Part shown: positions 138 to 11,012 of the stretch, one piece after another
Layout: every line of letters begins with the position of its first letter
Position numbering within the stretch: the stretch's first letter is position 1
Assembly: GCA_019308705.1 (NCBI GenBank)
Contig: JAFDHW010000042.1
Coordinates: forward strand, 1-11,012
Length of the DNA: 11,012 nucleotides
Direction: 5' to 3'
Source of the DNA: Deltaproteobacteria bacterium
GTDB taxonomy: Bacteria > Desulfobacterota > Desulfobacteria > Desulfobacterales > Desulfatibacillaceae
Made by a program: the position numbers and the translations under genes
Notes under the pieces: model-generated
Databases searched by the model: none
Seen by the model: the letters and a program-made list of their open reading frames with translations, nothing else
Told to the model about the DNA's origin: nothing

Positions 138-1418
138 CTATTTTTCCTCCACCACCCGGTGATGGCGTTTTTTCCCCGCCCGCAGGGTCAGCGCGCCGTC
201 CACGGCGTCGGCAAGGGTCACCGCCTGGTCAAAGGCCTCCACCCGCCGGTCGTTCACGTAGCCCCCTCCCTGGGCCAACAGCCGCCGGGCCGCCCCCCTG
301 GAGGCGCACAGCCCCACCTCGGCGAACAGCTCGAAGGCGGGAATCCCCTTTTCCAGGCGCTCCCGCGGGATGGCCGTGGTGGGTACGCCTTTGTCGGCGG
401 CGCCCTTCTTCCTGGGGATGGACGAAGAAGGCAAAAGGCCCGCCGGGATGTTCCAGCCTCCGAACATGGCCGCGGCCGCGGAAAAGGCCTCGTCGGCCGC
501 CTCCGTACCGTGGGCCAGGGCCGTGGCCTCGAAGGCCAGGACGGCCTTGGCCGGGTTCAGGTCCTGGCCGGACAAGCTTTCCACGGCTTCGATCTCCTCG
601 CCCGGCAGGAAGGTGAACAGGCACAAAAACCGGGCCACGTCGTCGTCGTGGGTGTTCACCCAGTACTGGAAATACTCGTAGGGGGAGGTCTTTTCCGGGG
701 AAAGCCACACCGCGCCCTTGGCGGTCTTGCCCATCTTGGCGCCGGAGCTCGTGGTGATGAGCGGGAAGGTGATGCCAAAGGCCGTCTGTCCCCGCACCCG
801 GCGGATGAGGTCCACCCCGGCCACGATGTTGCCCCACTGGTCGGAGCCCCCCATCTGGAGCCGGCACCCGCGGCGGTCGAAGAGTTTCAGGAAATCGTAG
901 GCCTGGAGCAGCATGTAGTTGAACTCGATGAAGGAAAGCCCCTCCTCGGATTCCAGGCGCAGGCGGCAGGACTCGGCCTTTAACATGCGATTGACGGAAA
1001 AATGCCGTCCGATGTCCCGCAAAAAGGGAATGTACTTCAGGCCCAAAAGCCAGTCCGCGTTGTTTTCCACCGAGGCGTTCTTGGAAAAATCCAGGAAACG
1101 GCCAAGCTGGGCCGCGATGGCCTGGCAGTTTTGCTCCACCAGGTTTGCGTCCAGAAGTTTGCGCATCTCCGTCTTGCCGGAGGGATCGCCCACCAGCCCG
1201 GTGCCCCCGCCCAGAAGGGCGATGGGGTGGTGGCCGGCCCGCTGCATGTGGCAAAGCGCCATGATGGGCACCAGGCTCCCCACGTGGAGGCTGTCCGCGG
1301 TGGGGTCGAACCCGATGTAGCAGACCACCTCCTCCTGGTTCAACAGATCGGCCAGTTCCTCCTGGTGGGTCACCGCCTCCACGAATCCCCGGCTTTGAAG
1401 CACGTCCAGCACGCTCAT
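138..1418 (-). CDS. tyrS: Tyrosine--tRNA ligase (TyrRS)
   Basis: TyrS charges tRNA-Tyr with tyrosine using ATP in the cytoplasm. The product is 426 aa from the ATG at 1416-1418, close to the usual class Ic bacterial TyrRS length. Visible marks are the Rossmann-fold start CYIGFDPTADSLHVGS with HVGS as the HIGH-type signature (about 45-48), GGSDQWGN (about 190-197) in the tyrosine/adenylate pocket, and KMGKT as the KMSKS-type loop (about 228-232). A C-terminal S4-like RNA-binding domain starts around residue 360 and contains a GGGYVNDRRV segment. An in-frame TTG at 1428-1430 would add four residues (MDGT). I prefer the ATG because MSVLD matches the usual TyrRS start and GGATGGA lies just upstream. 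The gene follows rny by 73 nt, and a hairpin lies in that gap. It is complete, with no anomalies. Confidence 0.97.
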   Translation of the reverse strand: MSVLDVLQSRGFVEAVTHQEELADLLNQEEVVCYIGFDPTADSLHVGSLVPIMALCHMQRAGHHPIALLGGGTGLVGDPSGKTEMRKLLDANLVEQNCQAIAAQLGRFLDFSKNASVENNADWLLGLKYIPFLRDIGRHFSVNRMLKAESCRLRLESEEGLSFIEFNYMLLQAYDFLKLFDRRGCRLQMGGSDQWGNIVAGVDLIRRVRGQTAFGITFPLITTSSGAKMGKTAKGAVWLSPEKTSPYEYFQYWVNTHDDDVARFLCLFTFLPGEEIEAVESLSGQDLNPAKAVLAFEATALAHGTEAADEAFSAAAAMFGGWNIPAGLLPSSSIPRKKGAADKGVPTTAIPRERLEKGIPAFELFAEVGLCASRGAARRLLAQGGGYVNDRRVEAFDQAVTLADAVDGALTLRAGKKRHHRVVEEK

Positions 1419-1437
1419 GGTTCCATCCAAACTTCGA

Positions 1438-1491: not shown

Positions 1492-3057
1492 TTATTTCGT
1501 GGCGTACCCCACCGCCCGGGTCTCCCGGATCACGGTCACCCGGATCTGGCCGGGAAAGGTGAGGTTCTCCTCGATCTTCTTGGTCACGTCCCGGCACAGC
1601 AGCACGGAATCGTCGTCGGACACCTTGTCGCTCTGCACGATGATGCGAAGTTCCCGCCCCGCCTGGATGGCGTAGGTGTTGGACACGCCGTCAAAGGAGG
1701 TGGCTATCTTTTCCAAGTCGTCCAGGCGCTTGATGTAGGATTCGAACATCTCCCTGCGCGCGCCGGGGCGGGCGCCGGAGAGCGAGTCCGCGGCCTGGAC
1801 CAGGACGGCCAGCACGGAAACCGGCGGCACGTCCTCGTGGTGGGCCGAGATGGCGTGCACCACCTTGGGGCTTTCGTTGAACTTCTTGGCCAGCTTGGCC
1901 CCGATCAAGGCGTGGGGGCCCTCCACCTCGTGGTCCACGGACTTGCCGATGTCGTGCAAAAGCCCGGCCCGGCGGGCCTGCTTCACGTTCAGGCCCAGCT
2001 CCGAAGCCATGATGCCGCACAAAAAGCCCACCTCGATGGAGTGCTGGAGCATGTTCTGGGCGTAGGAGGTTCGGAACTTGAGCTTGCCCAGGTGCTTGAT
2101 CAGCTCGGGATGGATGCCGTGGACCCCCAGGTCGAAGGTGGCCTGCTCCCCGGCCTCGCGGATGGTCTGCTCCACGTCGGCCTCGGCCTTTTTCACCACG
2201 TCCTCGATGCGGGCGGGGTGGATGCGGCCGTCGGCGATGAGCCGGGTGAGGGCCAGCCGGGCCACCTCCCGGCGCACGGGGTTGAACCCGGAGAGGATCA
2301 CGGCCTCGGGAGTGTCGTCCACGATGAGGTCGATGCCCGTAGCGGCCTCCAGGGCCCGGATGTTTCGTCCCTCCCGGCCGATGATCCTGCCCTTCATCTC
2401 CTCGTTGGGCAGATCCACCACGGACACGGTCTTTTCCGCCACGTAGTCCCCGGCGTAACGCTGGATGGCCGTGGCGATGATCTTCTTGGACTTCTTGTCC
2501 GCTTCTTCCTTGGCTTCGTTCTCGATGCGCTTGACCAGCTTGGCGGCCTCGTGGCGGGCCTCGCTCTCCATGGCCTTGACCAGGAGCTCCTTGGCCTGCT
2601 CGGCGGTCATACCGGAGATGCGCTCCAGCTCCGCCTGTTGTTGGGCCACCAGCTGCTCGACCTTCTGTTTTTCCCCGGCCAGGGCCGCCTCCTGCTCCGC
2701 CAGGGAGCGCTCCCGCGCGTCCAGTTCCGCGTCGCGCTTGTCCAGCTGGTCCAGCTTCCTGTCCAGGTTTTCTTCGCGCTGGAGCAGCCTGGCCTCCAGC
2801 TTCTTGAACTCGTTTCTGGCCTCCCGGCTCTCTTGCTCAAAATCCGACCGCATCTTGAAGACGAGGTCCTTGGCCTCCACCTCGGCTTCCTTCAAGATGC
2901 GTTCCGCGGTCCTTTTGGCTTCCTCCAGGTGGCGCCTGGCCTTCTCTTCCGTTTCCCGTACGCGGCCTGCGCCCACCCGCCTGCGCAAAAGCAGGGCCGC
3001 GCCCGCTCCCGCAGCGAGCAGAGCCAGCCCCGCGAGTATATATAGAATGATCTCCAT
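1492..3057 (-). CDS. rny: Ribonuclease Y (membrane-anchored endoribonuclease)
   Basis: RNase Y is an endonuclease that starts mRNA decay and processing at the inner membrane. The 521-aa product shows the full family layout: an N-terminal membrane anchor (about 4-25) followed by basic residues, a long charged coiled coil (about 30-200), a KH RNA-binding domain with [12 protein letters not shown] (about 223-234), and an HD metal-dependent phosphohydrolase domain. The metal ligands are visible as H339 in LQHSIEV and H368-D369 in LLHDIGK, with the later AHHEDV and [15 protein letters not shown] stretches. Length matches the usual ~520 aa. The start is well supported: GGAGGAA lies just upstream of the ATG at 3055-3057. 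It lies downstream of the 6S RNA gene across a structured spacer of about 300 nt, and tyrS follows it. No defects are visible. Confidence 0.97.
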
Positions 3058-3556: not shown

Positions 3557-3865
3557 TCATGAGACCCGGCCCTCCGTCTGCTGGCGGATGCGGTCCAGGA
3601 GTGCTTCGGACCGGGCGCCTATCCTCTCGATGAACCGTTGATGTTCCTTGCTGAACGCGGCATACCTGCCGCATATGTCCATGATGGCCAGAACCAGGAG
3701 GGCGGCCTTGTCTCCCTGGCCGCGGTTTGCAAAATGGCTTTGAACCCTCTGGATGGTTTCCTCGGCCAACCTGGCGGCTTCCCTAACTTCGGCCGGATCG
3801 CCCTGGGTCTCGAAGGTGTATTCCTTGCCCAGAACCCTGATGGTGACCCTCTGCTGGGAAGTCAT
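3557..3865 (-). CDS. zapA: Cell division protein ZapA
   Basis: ZapA binds FtsZ and bundles protofilaments, stabilising the Z ring at midcell. The 102-aa product has the ZapA head at the N terminus (VTIRVLGKEYTFETQGD, about 7-23), the AARLAEETIQRVQ helix, and a C-terminal coiled coil (about 52-98) with the DKAALLVLAIMDICGRY segment typical of the family. The frame is open further upstream to about 4147, but the ATG at 3863-3865 is the right start: it follows the upstream gene by 14 nt, has AAGGCGG upstream, and gives the normal ZapA length. It is preceded by a zapB-like gene, presumably in one transcript. The 6S RNA begins about 22 nt after its stop codon. Confidence 0.93.
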   Translation of the reverse strand: MTSQQRVTIRVLGKEYTFETQGDPAEVREAARLAEETIQRVQSHFANRGQGDKAALLVLAIMDICGRYAAFSKEHQRFIERIGARSEALLDRIRQQTEGRVS

Positions 3866-3879
3866 GGCGCCGCCTTGGG

Positions 3880-4134
3880 CTATGCCTGGTCGCCGCCGGC
3901 CGAACCGGCCTGCCGGAGCCGGACAAGAAGCCCGTCGATACGGGAGCGGACCTCTTTGCGCTCGGCCAGAAGCCGGCCTTCGGCGTCCGTCTTTTCCTCC
4001 AACCGGGCTTCCAGGGCGCCGATCCGTTCCCTGAGTCCGCCATTTTCCTGGGAAAGGGCTTCGCACCGCGCCACCAGGCGATCCACCTGGTCGGCCAACC
4101 TGTCGAATTCCTGAAGGATACTCTCTTCGTCCAA
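3880..4134 (-). CDS. Small coiled-coil protein, ZapB-like
   Basis: This is an 84-aa acidic and basic, leucine-patterned protein that appears to be one continuous coiled coil from about residue 4 to 75 (for example LADQVDRLVARCEALSQENG and IGALEARLEEK). It has no membrane segment or catalytic motif. Size, composition and position directly before zapA suggest a ZapB-type division partner that would bridge ZapA to other division or chromosome proteins; that role is inference from context. The start is a TTG at 4132-4134. There is no in-frame ATG in the segment, and GGAGGA lies at 4138-4143, five bases upstream, so TTG is well supported. A sigma70-type promoter lies immediately upstream. Coiled coils mimic one another, so the family call is only moderate. 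Confidence 0.8.
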   Translation of the reverse strand: MDEESILQEFDRLADQVDRLVARCEALSQENGGLRERIGALEARLEEKTDAEGRLLAERKEVRSRIDGLLVRLRQAGSAGGDQA

Positions 4135-4137
4135 TCT

Positions 4138-4178
4138 TCCTCCACAATAACTATAGATTTTTGGCTCCTGAAAATCAA
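4138..4178 (-). promoter_or_regulatory. Promoter of zapB-like/zapA/ssrS with very short leader and strong RBS
   Basis: On the minus strand TTGATT (-35, 4173-4178) is separated by exactly 17 nt from TATAGT (-10, 4150-4155), an AT-rich match to the sigma70 consensus in otherwise GC-rich DNA. The expected start of transcription, about 7 nt past the -10, falls near 4143, where the Shine-Dalgarno GGAGGA (4138-4143) begins. The 5' leader would then be only about 9-11 nt before the TTG start at 4134. It likely drives zapB-like, zapA and perhaps a 6S RNA precursor. Confidence 0.75.
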
Positions 4179-4317: not shown

Positions 4318-4743
4318 TCAGGAGCTCATGCGGGCCGCGGCCCGGCTTTCCGCAAGGGATAACCGGTGCTGGGCGCGCAACAAGGCGGCCTTGGCGCGCT
4401 CGAAGTCCACGTCCGGGGCCCCGGATTCCAGCCTTTCCTGGGCCCGTTTCATGGCCTGGCGGGCGCGCTCGATGTCGATGTCGCTGCGGCGCTCCCCGGA
4501 CTGGGCCAGGACGGTCACCCGGTCGGGCAGCACCTCGGCAAAACCCTTGCTTACGAACACGCACCGTTCGGCTCCCGAAGCGTCCTTGTATCGCAGGGAG
4601 CCCACCTGCAGGCTGGTCAAGAAGGGGGTATGGCCGGGAAGAACCCCGAACTCCCCTTCGCTGCCCGGTGCGGTCACGGTCTGGGCCTGTTCGCCGACCA
4701 CCACCCGCTCGGGGGTCACGATTTCCAGATAGATATCGGCCAT
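4318..4743 (-). CDS. atpC: F1Fo ATP synthase subunit epsilon
   Basis: Epsilon is part of the central stalk; it couples gamma to the c-ring and can inhibit ATP hydrolysis through its C-terminal helices. The 141-aa product has the N-terminal beta-sandwich (about 1-85) with the family motif [11 protein letters not shown] (30-40), then two charged helices (about 88-138) that end in the [13 protein letters not shown] segment. Length is normal. The ATG at 4741-4743 is preceded by AGAGGAAG as ribosome binding site. It is the last gene of the operon, 36 nt after atpD, with the strong terminator downstream. Confidence 0.96.
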
Positions 4744-4779
4744 GACTTCCTCTTTTTGGGTGCCGTAGGGGCAGGCCTA

Positions 4780-6231
<1,452 letters not shown>

Positions 6232-7122
6232 TTATCCCTTCAGGGCCTCGGCGCCCCCGACAATATCCATCAATTCCTTGGTGATCGCCGCCTGCCGCGC
6301 CTTGTTGTAGGCCAGGGTCAGCTCGTCCAGCATGTCGTTGCATGCCTTGGTGGCGTTGTCCATGGCCTGCATCCGCGCGGCGTGCTCGGCAGTGGATGTC
6401 TCCAAAAGGGCCCTGTACACCTGGATGTATACGCTCATGGGCAGAAGCTCGGCCATGAGGGCCTCCACCGAGGGCTCGCACAGGTGTTCCGCCAAAAATT
6501 CGCCGGCGTCGGCTTTCTCCTCCTCCGCGGCCTCGATGGGCGGCACAGGCAACACCTGCCGCAGGGTGGCGGGCTGCTTGGCCACGGACACGAACCGGGA
6601 GTAGATCACCCAGACCTCGTCCCACCGGCCATCCAAAAAGCCGTCGATGAGCTTCTGTCCCGCGTCCGCCGCCACGGTGTAGGGAAAACGGGTTCCTATG
6701 ACGCCCAGGTGTTCTTCCACCCGCTCGAACCCGTTTTTCCGGGCCCAGTCGCGGCCCTTTTTCCCGAAGTTGGTGAACTTGACCCCTATGCCCGCGTCCT
6801 CCTTCTCCGCGGCGAAGTCCTCGGCCATCTCGATGAGGTTGGCGTTGAACCCGCCGCACAGGCCGCGGTCCGAGGTGCACAGCACCACGTTTACGGTCTT
6901 CACCTCGTTCCTGGGCACGAACAGGGGGCTCACGTCATCCCCGGCCCGAGCGGCAAGGCTCGCCAGAACCTCGGAGAACTTGTCCGCGTAGGGCCGAAAG
7001 GCGTCGGACCTCAGCTGGGCGCCGCGAAGACGCGAGGCAGCCACCATGTTCATGGCCTTGGTGATCTGCCGGGTCTTCTTCACGCCCCCGATCTTGGCCT
7101 TTACGTCCTTTAAACTTGGCAT
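6232..7122 (-). CDS. atpG: F1Fo ATP synthase subunit gamma
   Basis: Gamma is the rotating shaft inside the alpha3beta3 ring. The 296-aa product begins with the N-terminal shaft helix (MPSLKDVKAKIGGVKKTRQI and MVAASRLRGAQ, about 1-55), has the Rossmann-like core with SDRGLCGGFN (84-93), and ends with the long C-terminal helix (MQAMDNATKACNDMLDELTL, then YNKARQAAITKELMDIVGGA). Length is typical. It starts at the ATG at 7120-7122, 20 nt after the end of the atpA C-terminal frame, and precedes atpD by 36 nt. The central region (about 150-215) is the variable part of the family and is slightly long here. Confidence 0.97.
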   Translation of the reverse strand: MPSLKDVKAKIGGVKKTRQITKAMNMVAASRLRGAQLRSDAFRPYADKFSEVLASLAARAGDDVSPLFVPRNEVKTVNVVLCTSDRGLCGGFNANLIEMAEDFAAEKEDAGIGVKFTNFGKKGRDWARKNGFERVEEHLGVIGTRFPYTVAADAGQKLIDGFLDGRWDEVWVIYSRFVSVAKQPATLRQVLPVPPIEAAEEEKADAGEFLAEHLCEPSVEALMAELLPMSVYIQVYRALLETSTAEHAARMQAMDNATKACNDMLDELTLAYNKARQAAITKELMDIVGGAEALKG

Positions 7123-7142
7123 GTCACAAGCCTCTTTCCCCG

Positions 7143-7538
7143 CTACTGGATGGTATCCTTGAACTGCTCCCCGTACTCGGTGAGAACCTTCTGCATCAGC
7201 GCGTCGATCTCGTCGTCGATGGCGCGCTTCTCCGCGAGCTTTTCGAAGAGTTCAGGATACTTGGTCTCCACGAACTGGTACAGGCCGGCCTCGTACTTGG
7301 CCAAAACGTCCGTGGGCAGCTCGTCCAGGTAGCCGCGGGTTCCGGCGTAAAGGATGGTCACCTGCTTTTCCAGCGGCAGGGGGCTGTACTGGGGCTGCTT
7401 CAAGATTTCCACCAGCCGCTGGCCGCGGATGAGCTGGGCCTGGGTGGCGGCGTCCAGGTCCGAGCCAAAGGCGGCGAAGGCCTCCAGCTCGCGGAACTGG
7501 GCCAGGTCCATACGCAGGGAGCCGGCCACCTGTTTCAT
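7143..7538 (-). CDS. atpA: ATP synthase subunit alpha, C-terminal fragment (split atpA)
   Basis: This 131-aa frame is the C-terminal helical domain of alpha: it begins [20 protein letters not shown] and continues through [32 protein letters not shown] and a final helix with [18 protein letters not shown]. In intact AtpA this follows directly after the GGAAQ-K-A stretch that ends the upstream frame. Here it is in a different frame, and its ATG (7536-7538) overlaps the upstream TGA (7535-7537) as ATGA. AGGAAAAGG lies just before the ATG, so reinitiation by the same ribosome is conceivable. The two frames sum to 505 residues, the normal alpha length. The internal M is normally just a residue within alpha, which argues for a one-base loss rather than a designed gene. 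Confidence 0.9.
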
Positions 7539-8659
7539 GCCTTTTCCTGGGCGGCGCCCCCGACCCGGGAAACGGACAGGCCCACGTTGATGGCGGGGCG
7601 GACGCCCGCGAAGAACAGGTTGGGCTCCAGGTAGATCTGGCCGTCGGTGATGGAGATCACGTTCGTGGGAATGTAGGCCGAAACGTCGCCCGCCTGGGTC
7701 TCGATGATGGGCAGGGCGGTGAGGGACCCGCCGCCCAGCTCGTCGGAGAGCTTGGCCGCGCGCTCCAACAGCCGGCTGTGGTTGTAGAAGATGTCGCCGG
7801 GGTAGGCCTCGCGTCCGGGCGGCCGGCGCAGCAGCAGGGAAATCTGGCGGTAGGCCGCCGCCTGCTTGGAAAGGTCGTCGTAGATGATCAGCGCGTGCTT
7901 GCCGTTGTCGCGGTAGTACTCGCCCATGGCGCAGCCCGCGTAGGGCGCGATGTACTGCAGGGTGGCCGGGTCCGCGGCGCAGGCGGAAACCACCGTGGTG
8001 TACTCCATGGCGCCGTACTTCTCCAGCACGGCCACCACCTGGGCCACCGAGGACTTTTTCTGTCCGCAGGCCACGTAGATGCAGTGCATGTCCGTGCCTT
8101 TCTGGGCCAGGATGGCGTCGATGCCCACGGCGGTCTTGCCGATCTGCCGGTCGCCGATGATGAGCTCGCGCTGGCCGCGGCCGACCGGGGTCATGGAGTC
8201 GACCGCCTTCAGGCCGGTGTAGCAGGGCTCGTGCACGGACTTTCTGGCGATGACGCCGGGCGCCACCATTTCCACCCGACGGAACTCGGCGGCCTCGATG
8301 GGGCCCTTGCCGTCGATGGGATTTCCCAAGGCGTCCACCACGCGGCCCTCCACGGCCTCGCCCACGGGAACCTGGGCGATGCGGCCGGTCCGCTTGACCA
8401 GGTCGCCTTCCTTGATGTGGATGTCCTCTCCCATGACGGCGACGCCCACGTTGTCCTCTTCCAGGTTCAGGGCCAGGCCAAGAACGTTGCCCGGGAACTC
8501 CACCAGCTCCAGGGCCATGACCTTTTCCAGGCCGTAGACGCGGGCGATGCCGTCACCCACCGACAGCACCGTTCCGGTCTCGGAAAGGTCCACCTTCTTG
8601 TCGTAGTCCTTGATTTGCTCCCGGATAATCTGACTGATTTCCTCGGCTCGTATTTCCAT
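7535..8659 (-). CDS. atpA: ATP synthase subunit alpha, N-terminal and nucleotide-binding part (split atpA)
   Basis: Alpha forms the F1 hexamer with beta and holds the non-catalytic nucleotides. This 374-codon frame covers the beta-barrel (about 1-95) and nucleotide-binding domain with P-loop GDRQIGKT (169-176), the LIIYDDLSK Walker B region (about 257-265), and SRVGGAA with the arginine that reaches into the catalytic site (R365). It stops at a TGA nine residues later, where the family would continue into the C-terminal domain; that domain is encoded next, in the -1 frame. GGC-ATG stands where an in-frame GGCC-ATG is expected, so one missing base (about 7539-7540) explains the break. The whole locus is 7143-8659. 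The start ATG (8657-8659) overlaps the atpH stop by one base (TGATG). Everything before the break looks conserved and under selection. Confidence 0.93.
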
Positions 8660-9213
8660 CAGACCGCCTCGCTCCTTTTCAGAAATTCCTTGAGATTGGC
8701 CAATTGGGTACGGACGCTCCCATCAAGCACCAGGTCCCCGATACGGGTGACCACCCCCCCGATGAGAGCGGGGTCCTTTCTGACTTCGACCGTAACGTCC
8801 TTGCCGGTGAGCTTGGCGAGCCCGGCCTTGATCTGCTCCACGGTCTCGTTATCCAGATCCTCTGCCGCCAGGACCTCGGCCCGGGCGATACCCTTTTCCT
8901 CGTCCGCCAATTCCCCGTAGACCTCGGCCACGGCGTCCAGAAGGCCGATGCGCCCTTTGTCGAACATCAACAGGAGAAAGGCGTTCATGACCTTGGAAAG
9001 GGCGAGGCGCTCAAGCACCCCTGCAAGCACTTTTTTCCGCGCGGCGGTGGGATAGATGGGATTGGTCACCGCGGAAAAAAGCTCCGGCGTTTCCTGCATG
9101 AGCTTGGCGACGCCCAAGAGCTCCTCCTGCAAGGAGTCGATGGCGCCTTCCTCCTTGCCGATCATGAGAAGGGCCTTGGCGTAACGCCTTGCCACCTTGC
9201 GATTTTTCTTCAC
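8659..9213 (-). CDS. atpH: F1Fo ATP synthase subunit delta
   Basis: Delta (OSCP in mitochondria) caps the F1 head and ties it to the b/b' stalk. The 184-aa product shows the family start [10 protein letters not shown] (7-16), an N-terminal helical domain (about 1-105), and the C-terminal signature with [20 protein letters not shown] (147-166). Length is normal. The start is a GTG at 9211-9213 that overlaps the atpF stop as GTGA, with AAGGTGG upstream, suggesting coupled translation. Its stop overlaps the atpA start by one base. No anomalies. Confidence 0.95.
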
Positions 9214-9863
9214 GATGCCACCACCTTCTCTAGATATTCATTCACCAGCCGCCCCTGGTCCTCGGAGCTGATGGACGACTTGATCCGCTCCTCGGAAAGG
9301 GCCACGGCCCGGTTGACGATCTCTTCCTTCAGGGCCCTGCGCGCTTCCTTGAACTCGTTTTCCAGGTGCCGGGCGGCCTGTTCCTTCAGGCGCTCGGCGG
9401 CCTTCTCGGCCTCGGCCAGGATGCGCTCCTTGGCGGCCAAGCCCTGCTTCTCGTAATCCTCGAGAATCTTTTTGGCCTCCTCGTCCATGCTGGCCAGCCG
9501 CTTTTCGGCCAGCTGGATCTCGGCCTCGGTCTGGGCCTTCTTCTCCTCCAGGTCGGAAAGCTCCTTCTTGATGTCCTCGATGCGGCCGGATAAGGCGGCC
9601 TTTGCCGGCTTCCTGGCCACGAAGACGAGCGCCCCGGCCAGGACCAGGAAATTCAGGACCCGGTAGGTGTCGGTTTTGCGCCAGCCCGCCGAGCCTTCCC
9701 CGTGCCCGCCGTCGTGGCCGCCTTCCTCGGCCGCCGCCTCCTCACCGGCGCCGTGGCCTTGTTCGGAAACCGCGAGAACGGGGCCGGAGAACAGCAAAAG
9801 GCCGGTGAAAACCAGGACCGCCAAAACCCAGAGGCCGCGGCCCGTCCCCTGAAACCTCCTCAT
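9210..9863 (-). CDS. atpF: F1Fo ATP synthase subunit b with signal-peptide-like N terminus
   Basis: Subunit b is one half of the peripheral stalk that holds F1 still against Fo. The 217-aa product has an added N-terminal hydrophobic segment (about 11-31) ending in PVLA, which looks like a cleavable signal peptide. Next comes a Gly/Glu/His-rich stretch (33-60, with GHGAGEEAAAEEGGHDGGHG), then the true b membrane helix (about 66-84), and a long charged coiled coil (92-200) ending in VNEYLEKVV. The frame is open further upstream into atpF', but the ATG at 9861-9863, which overlaps the atpF' stop as ATGA, gives the sensible start. I recall similar extended b subunits in deltaproteobacteria. The acidic/His segment would lie on the periplasmic side. 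Confidence 0.93.
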   Translation of the reverse strand: MRRFQGTGRGLWVLAVLVFTGLLLFSGPVLAVSEQGHGAGEEAAAEEGGHDGGHGEGSAGWRKTDTYRVLNFLVLAGALVFVARKPAKAALSGRIEDIKKELSDLEEKKAQTEAEIQLAEKRLASMDEEAKKILEDYEKQGLAAKERILAEAEKAAERLKEQAARHLENEFKEARRALKEEIVNRAVALSEERIKSSISSEDQGRLVNEYLEKVVAS

Positions 9864-10297
9864 GACAATGCCCTCCCCAATATCTTCTGCCCGATGGACC
9901 GGGCGAACGCGTCGATCTGCTCTTCCAGCTCCTTCTTGGCCTCGGCCACCTGGGCGGAAACCTTCTTGCGCATCTCTTCCAGGTCCTTGGCGGCCTGTTC
10001 GTTGATCCTGGAGATGATCTCCTTTTCCTGCTCCTCGGCCTGGCGGGTGAGTTCCTCCTTTTTCCGCTGCCCCGCGGCACGGGCCTCGGCCAGCTTCTCC
10101 TCCAGGGTCCGGCGGGCTTCTTCGGCCCTTTCGCGGGAATTCCGGATTTCGTCCTCCATGCCGGTGATCTTCTCCCTGCGCTGGGCGACGATGCCGCGGA
10201 TGGGCCTGTACAGGATGAAGTTCATCGCGATGATGAGCACCACGAAATTCGCCACCTGGATCAAGGTGGAAGCATTCGGGATCACTTGAATTTCCAT
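9860..10297 (-). CDS. atpF': F1Fo ATP synthase subunit b' (second b-type stalk subunit)
   Basis: This 145-aa protein has one N-terminal membrane helix (about 8-30, with TLIQVANFVVLIIAMNFILY followed by RPI) and a long coiled coil rich in E, K, R and Q (about 36-135), the usual b/b' design. Together with the next gene it would form a b/b' heterodimeric stalk, as in photosynthetic and many deltaproteobacterial enzymes. An in-frame TTG at 10316-10318 would add seven residues (MRKRGVF). The ATG at 10295-10297 is preferred because MEIQVIPN leads straight into the membrane helix. The Shine-Dalgarno (GCGGGGCG) is weak. It is the first gene of the operon, about 100 nt after the predicted transcription start, and its stop overlaps the atpF start. 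Confidence 0.92.
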   Translation of the reverse strand: MEIQVIPNASTLIQVANFVVLIIAMNFILYRPIRGIVAQRREKITGMEDEIRNSRERAEEARRTLEEKLAEARAAGQRKKEELTRQAEEQEKEIISRINEQAAKDLEEMRKKVSAQVAEAKKELEEQIDAFARSIGQKILGRALS

Positions 10298-10402
10298 GAA
10301 AACGCCCCGCTTTCTCAACGAACGTGTCCCCCGGGATGCGGGCGCACCGCTTCCTGTGGGACAACCGGCTTACATTATTATGATTACCTAAAAAGACGCG
10401 GA
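10298..10402 (-). other. 5' untranslated leader of the atp operon
   Basis: From the predicted promoter the transcript would carry about 100 nt before the atpF' ATG. The leader begins AT-rich (TTTTTAGGTAATCATAATAATG, around 10375-10396) and then turns GC-rich (CCCGCATCCCGGGGGACACG, 10321-10340). I see no riboswitch fold I can name and no small gene of convincing quality. Confidence 0.4.
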
Positions 10403-10432
10403 TTCATACCACCAGGACAAGCGCCGTGTCAA
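10403..10432 (-). promoter_or_regulatory. Promoter of the atp operon
   Basis: On the minus strand a perfect -35 hexamer TTGACA (10427-10432) is followed after 18 nt by TATGAA (10403-10408), a fair sigma70-type -10. Transcription would start near 10396. Nothing else between rodA and atpF' looks like a better promoter, and the operon genes downstream are tightly packed without another clear one. Confidence 0.75.
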
Positions 10433-10446
10433 AGGTTTTTTCCCTC

Positions 10447-10476
10447 AAAATCGCCTTCCGGAAAGGGCGGGATTTT
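10447..10476 (-). terminator. Imperfect hairpin after rodA, possible terminator
   Basis: AAAATC (10447-10452) faces GATTTT (10471-10476), and CCTTCC faces GGAAAGG around the centre at 10459-10460, with bulged bases on one side. It lies between the rodA stop and the atp promoter, where a terminator is expected. The T-run is only four and belongs to the stem, so the call is weak. The rest of 10477-10562 holds no feature I can support. Confidence 0.35.
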
Positions 10477-10562
10477 GGGCAAGGCGTCCCGGGGCTTGGG
10501 GGTGGAAAACGGCGGGACGTTAAACGGCGCGGAATCCGGGGGACAAAGGGGACGGCCGGGGG

Positions 10563-11012
10563 TCACTCGAAAAGCAACCGGCGCATGCCCACGTTGAGGA
10601 GCAGGCCGATGCCCAGGAAGATGGTGAGCACCGACGAGCCTCCGTAGCTGACGAAGGGGAGGGTGACTCCCACCACGGGCAGAAGCCCCATGACCATACC
10701 CACGTTGATGAAGGTCTGCCAGAACAGCATGGCCACCACGCCCACGGCCAGGTATGTGCCGAAGGCGTCCCGGGACCTCCAGGCGATGGTGAGGCCCATG
10801 AGCAAGAGCAGGGCGAACAACAGCAGGAGAAAGATCCCGCCCAGAAACCCCCATTCCTCGGCCATGACCGAAAAGATGAAGTCCGTATGCTGCTCGGGCA
10901 GAAACGCCAGGGCCTTTTGGGTGCCTTCCATGTAGCCCTTGCCCGTAACCATGCCCGAGCCGATGGCGATCTTGGACTGGATGATGTGATATCCCGACCC
11001 CAGGGGGTCGGC
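10563..11012 (-). CDS. rodA: Rod shape-determining protein RodA, C-terminal part (cut by window edge)
   Basis: RodA is the SEDS-family glycosyltransferase that polymerises lipid II into peptidoglycan strands in the elongasome, paired with a class B PBP. The 149 visible residues are the C-terminal part. They begin with ADPLGSGYHIIQSKIAIGSG, the conserved extracytoplasmic segment whose Asp corresponds to the catalytic SEDS aspartate. Then come FLPEQHTDFIFSVMAEEWG, three hydrophobic helices, and the closing signature LPFVSYGGSS near the C terminus. The product ends at MRRLLFE. The frame is open to the window edge, so the 5' part lies beyond 11012; an internal ATG or GTG near 10950 is not the start. 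It is transcribed towards the atp operon, but a separate promoter there suggests distinct units. Confidence 0.95.
   Translation of the reverse strand, partial: ADPLGSGYHIIQSKIAIGSGMVTGKGYMEGTQKALAFLPEQHTDFIFSVMAEEWGFLGGIFLLLLFALLLLMGLTIAWRSRDAFGTYLAVGVVAMLFWQTFINVGMVMGLLPVVGVTLPFVSYGGSSVLTIFLGIGLLLNVGMRRLLFE

Follow-up and report, generated by a model that had tools for sequence, protein, structure and literature searches.

In the mitochondria of Euglenozoa (Trypanosoma, Crithidia, Leishmania and Euglena), the alpha subunit of the ATP synthase consists of two chains. According to PMC8311965, a single gene is translated and its product then proteolysed, the trypanosomal alpha being cut into residues 1-127 and 135-560. 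The alpha subunit that we analyzed is likewise in two pieces, but the euglenozoan cut is proteolytic and lies near residues 127-135, whereas the break studied here lies in the DNA, after residue 374 and before the C-terminal domain. The first-pass annotation had named the two-piece alpha of kinetoplastids as the result of proteolysis at another place, in agreement with that paper. In a limited literature search, no title announced a split alpha from a bacterium. With the Desulfobacterales-type AtpA (TIGR00962), our locus has the domains, the motifs and the gene order in common; it differs in carrying two frames where the relatives examined carry one.

The window, by which we mean the whole 11,012-nucleotide stretch analyzed, corresponds to bases 1-11012 of contig C235. 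The genome (G000) consists of 500 contigs with 2,844,558 bases in total, at a completeness of 95.68% and a contamination of 1.22%, and the named organisms closest to it are known from metagenome genomes, of Desulfobacteraceae and of further Desulfobacterales. The minus strand of the window carries an F-ATPase operon in the order b', b, delta, alpha, gamma, beta, epsilon, and the neighbouring genes look ordinary (Table 1). It had been noted that all the other atp genes looked intact, and this holds for beta, gamma, delta, epsilon, b and b' in the window, each of which gave a near-full-length match to its Pfam model; subunits a and c were not noticed there. A 915-aa open frame at window positions 4366-7113 of the plus strand runs antisense to beta and gamma; most likely it is a by-product of the 64% G+C content and no gene.

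No single continuous alpha frame is present in the window contig. The subunit is instead encoded in two overlapping frames, the C part being shifted to the -1 frame with respect to the N part. Our coordinates bear out the first-pass annotation down to the stop codon and the ATGA overlap. On the TIGR00962 profile, the N part matched positions 2-375 and the C part positions 376-501 of 503, with nothing lost and nothing duplicated between them, and the F1 alpha domain set (beta-barrel, nucleotide-binding and C-terminal) is complete and in order across both parts. Because the TIGR00962 and Pfam matches split so cleanly, with PF02874 and PF00006 on one side and PF00306 on the other, the break sits at a domain boundary, as had also been proposed, and the two frames are no chance pairing.

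Table 1. Positions of the two atpA frames, of their junction and of the other genes discussed in the text
Feature	Location	Strand	Remarks
Class I tRNA synthetase, Tyr type	window 138-1430	minus	neighbour, ordinary
RNase Y	window 1492-3057	minus	neighbour, ordinary
ZapA	window 3557-4147	minus	neighbour, ordinary
ZapB-like frame	window 3880-4134	minus	neighbour, ordinary
atpA C part	window 7538..7143	minus	131 aa; C-terminal domain, PF00306; ATG 7538-7536; -1 frame
ATGA, common to N-part end and C-part start	window 7535..7538	minus	frame break at its upstream edge
AGGAAAAGG, ribosome-site-like run	window 7540..7548	minus	codes Gln-Glu-Lys
atpA N part	window 8659..7535	minus	374 aa; beta-barrel and nucleotide-binding domains; PF02874 and PF00006; TGA 7537-7535
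FtsW/RodA protein, end portion, at contig end	window 10563-11012	minus	neighbour, ordinary
N-ATPase-type operon	L135 (contig C274) ~4575-10690	plus	beta, alpha, AtpR, a, b

We compared the locus with its counterparts in related genomes. Among 58 such genomes, we found 53 orthologous alpha genes, and all 53 form one open frame of 505-571 aa; of the other five genomes, one had a partial match (G013, 61 residues in a 193-aa frame), three had weak matches (G044, G045 and G048) and one had none (G041). In the GTDB collection, both parts lie in one frame at 79 of the best 80 loci taken from 586 confirmed candidates, the 80th (L084) ending before the C part. The same was true of all 29 relatives' loci drawn from the 58-genome set, which partly overlap with the 80 GTDB loci. 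No frame break was thus seen at the junction site among the 53 orthologues, 79 of the best 80 GTDB loci and the 29 loci, and the loci of the last two sets, with their single frame, do not keep the two-gene layout. The first-pass annotation had named close relatives as the comparison to make, and the intact junction frame found there supports a missing base.

When 389 genomes of the order were searched with the C part, 335 gave a match, the window's own genome included. Among the 149 non-window matches listed, 141 lie in frames of at least 505 aa. Judging from their coordinates, six of the shorter ones run off the start of the contig (G064, G142, G204, G231, G264 and G338), and the alpha frame of G238 reaches the end of its contig. 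The alpha frame of G301, also among the matches listed, has 478 aa and starts ~30 residues late, far from the junction site; this late start, on contig C175 (L246), may reflect a break in the frame close to the N-terminal end.

The decisive comparison was made at the protein level: among ~5.8 billion proteins, the one that matched best, apart from the protein of the window itself, was P0002, an intact alpha of 505 aa encoded on a separate 3,339-base contig. It is identical to the joined parts at 504 of 505 residues, the sole difference being residue 124, and the C part is identical throughout (131/131). From its length and identity, we conclude that the gene is whole in the same species or in one extremely close to it. 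The 120 best of 8,000 scored proteins comprised the window's own of 374 aa and 119 others of 474-508 aa, and a comparison with solved structures, with P0002 as the query, gave 68 distinct sequences at E <=1e-100 and confirmed an ordinary alpha. The gamma protein of the window (P0241) occurs with 100% identity on two contigs, that of the window being the longest. Our guess is that the second of them is the P0002 contig, which could stem from a different strain.

In public data, 36 further proteins of 131 aa (in the range P0122-P0240) began at the same Met as the C part, 35 of them with MKQVAG and one with MKKVAG. Some are encoded on long contigs (P0135, 80,573 bases; P0181, 35,423 bases; P0184, 19,596 bases). 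We did not accept the group as evidence of independent splits, since many of its members come from short contigs where the contig end would explain them. The shared start is probably what a gene caller picks whenever the frame is interrupted upstream or the contig stops, although some recurrent splits may be among them.

We also studied the substitution rates of the two parts. In comparison with the same-genus relative L090, to which the N part is 91% and the C part 80% identical, we obtained a dN of 0.059, a dS of 0.38 and a ratio of ~0.16 for the N part, and a dN of 0.141, a dS of 0.51 and a ratio of ~0.28 for the C part. For the C part, the ratio was ~0.19-0.30 between the window and eight relatives and ~0.20-0.24 when intact relatives were compared with one another (six pairs); the ranges overlap with the window slightly higher, and such rates suggest no clear relaxation. 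The full identity of the C part to that of P0002 leaves no room for decay.

The junction itself has the outward form of a gene boundary. Stop and start overlap, AGGA stands six bases upstream of the C-part ATG, and together with the ribosome-site-like run AGGAAAAGG this is a formal match to an ATGA reinitiation pair. In the 99 relatives' loci compared at the junction, however, the corresponding residues are mostly Gln-x-Lys-Ala-Met-Lys, the Met being present in 97, and AGGAAAAGG itself recurs in frame in three of them (L087, L095 and L098). What had been offered as a possible ribosome binding site is on this evidence an ordinary coding run for Gln-Glu-Lys. As the ATG and the run are both inherited in-frame coding sequence, a shortfall of one base creates the stop, the overlapping start and the apparent ribosome site at once. 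The counts in relatives gave no sign of selection for a start site at the junction Met: AAG encodes the Lys at the site in 60 of 94 genes, where the codon usage of the individual genes predicts 60.9, and a ribosome-site-like tetramer is found 4-15 bases upstream of the ATG in 11 of 97 genes. A canonical site for a -1 slip has the form X XXY YYZ; no such heptamer is present at the junction, which reads G GAA AAG.

To place the break in the context of the genome, we surveyed the window and 34 further contigs with a segmentation by codon usage, trained on homology-supported genes that included those of the window. The survey covered 259,056 bases and called 225,666 of them coding. It detected 78 same-strand frame changes, one of which is the atpA junction, and an NTGA overlap is present at 34 of them. 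Only one change is impossible as a gene boundary, the upstream frame staying open for more than 60 bases past it: it lies at position 1005 of L123 (contig C60) and is accounted for by a run of N at 1011-1054, a scaffold gap in or next to a frame matching part of GlmU. The upstream frame stays open for 31-60 bases past the change in L121, L135 and L198. The Pfam families differ across the change in L190, L121 and L135, while L198 has a match on one side only and L123 on neither.

In a sensitivity control on contigs of at least 8 kb, 54 of 95 random one-base losses (~57%) were recognised outright, 38 resembled possible gene boundaries, as the atpA junction does, and 3 went uncalled. With a survey that recognises ~57% of losses outright, we found no other clear frameshift in the 225,666 called coding bases, and some of the remaining frame changes could hide one. 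The lack of further clear frameshifts indicates that the assembly is not generally error-rich, which tells somewhat against an error at atpA. We discarded a first codon-usage segmentation that mixed sense and antisense frames and failed to report the junction of atpA on the strand of that gene. A survey against the same-family genome G005 was likewise set aside: with a cut-off of 45% identity, 906 ORFs taken from 1,191,985 reference bases could be aligned to no more than 23,383 of the bases sampled from our genome, and the comparison gave one weak candidate, L134, with identities of 48% and 41%. An NCBIfam screen of 115 flanking ORFs and the two atpA parts, meant to reveal families common to the neighbourhoods, was swamped by histidine kinases and yielded no usable count.

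The genome contains five PF00006 matches, two on the window contig, two on C274 and one on C390. Those on C274 belong to an N-ATPase-type operon (Table 1) in which beta (TIGR03305), alpha (TIGR03324), a (TIGR03306) and b (TIGR03321) all scored above the curated cut-offs and AtpR was matched by PF12966; two small ORFs between these genes stayed without a match at the threshold applied. The C274 alpha is also an F1 alpha and its frame is intact, but it belongs to a different operon and family and is 54% identical to the window alpha over N-part residues 24-371. The stop-to-stop frame that holds it is unusually long, at 779 aa. As for a second atpA, the possibility of which had been raised in the first-pass annotation, the genome offers only this N-ATPase-type alpha and no second copy of the gene.

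Taken together, we favour the explanation that the frame break is an isolated error, made in sequencing or in building the assembly consensus, in an ordinary F1 alpha gene, and give it a probability of roughly 0.62, because the relatives are intact and an almost identical 505-aa protein is encoded on another contig. The same two observations favour what the first-pass annotation had called the simplest reading, a base missing from the assembled sequence. The main rival is a real and very recent loss of one base in the assembled strain or a sub-population, which would have inactivated or strongly impaired the main F-ATPase and was perhaps tolerated for a time thanks to the second, N-ATPase-type ATPase. 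It owes this rank to the rarity of further frame breaks in the contigs surveyed; the N-ATPase-type set on C274 (alpha, beta, AtpR, a and b) could soften the effect of such a mutation, and the one residue by which P0002 differs speaks for the existence of more than one strain. However, that close copy is intact, the C part is unchanged against it and bears no trace of decay, and it is doubtful that a sulfate-reducer-like cell would do without its main ATP synthase. We consider a real loss less likely than an error, though a close rival to it.

A working two-piece alpha would require translation to stop at the TGA and, by coupling, to restart at the ATG, with chains of 374 and 131 aa lying side by side in F1. 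The ATGA overlap with AGGA ahead of the ATG suits such a scheme, as does the position of the cut at a domain boundary; with NTGA overlaps at 34 of 78 frame changes, coupling would be nothing unusual in this genome, and a two-chain alpha is on record in Euglenozoa (PMC8311965). The 36 further public proteins of 131 aa that start at the same Met could be counted in its favour too. Nevertheless, the arrangement was seen in no relative examined, an almost identical intact form exists, and the AAG and tetramer counts betray no bias toward a start site, and we judge the two-piece enzyme very improbable. It is still harder to credit that the base is truly absent and that the strain lives with an alpha of 374 and 131 aa through ATGA reinitiation, split just behind the conserved arginine of SRVGG, on the edge of the C-terminal domain. 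A programmed -1 slip, ribosomal or transcriptional, at GAA-AAG would join the frames into a 505-aa chain, and its direction is right, with GAAAAG just before the stop. The bases depart from the canonical heptamer, though, and stand in frame in L087, L095 and L098, where no slip is needed, while the frame break itself recurs in no relative examined; of all the explanations, we hold the slip to be extremely improbable. The first-pass annotation had listed both the slip and the two polypeptides, and neither alternative has comparative support.

If the break is an isolated error, the cell would make one alpha chain of 505 aa as usual, and the two apparent genes, their ATGA overlap and the ribosome-site-like run would all follow from a shortfall of one base beside a conserved in-frame Met. 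The frame break is real in the given sequence and most likely ordinary in its cause and absent from the working gene of the organism, and the split alpha is most likely no new two-piece enzyme. A chance break at a domain boundary, beside an in-frame ATG and a run resembling a ribosome site, makes a very convincing false gene pair. Should the split nonetheless be real, it would mean that the ring of F1 can assemble from alpha subunits cut right behind their conserved arginine.
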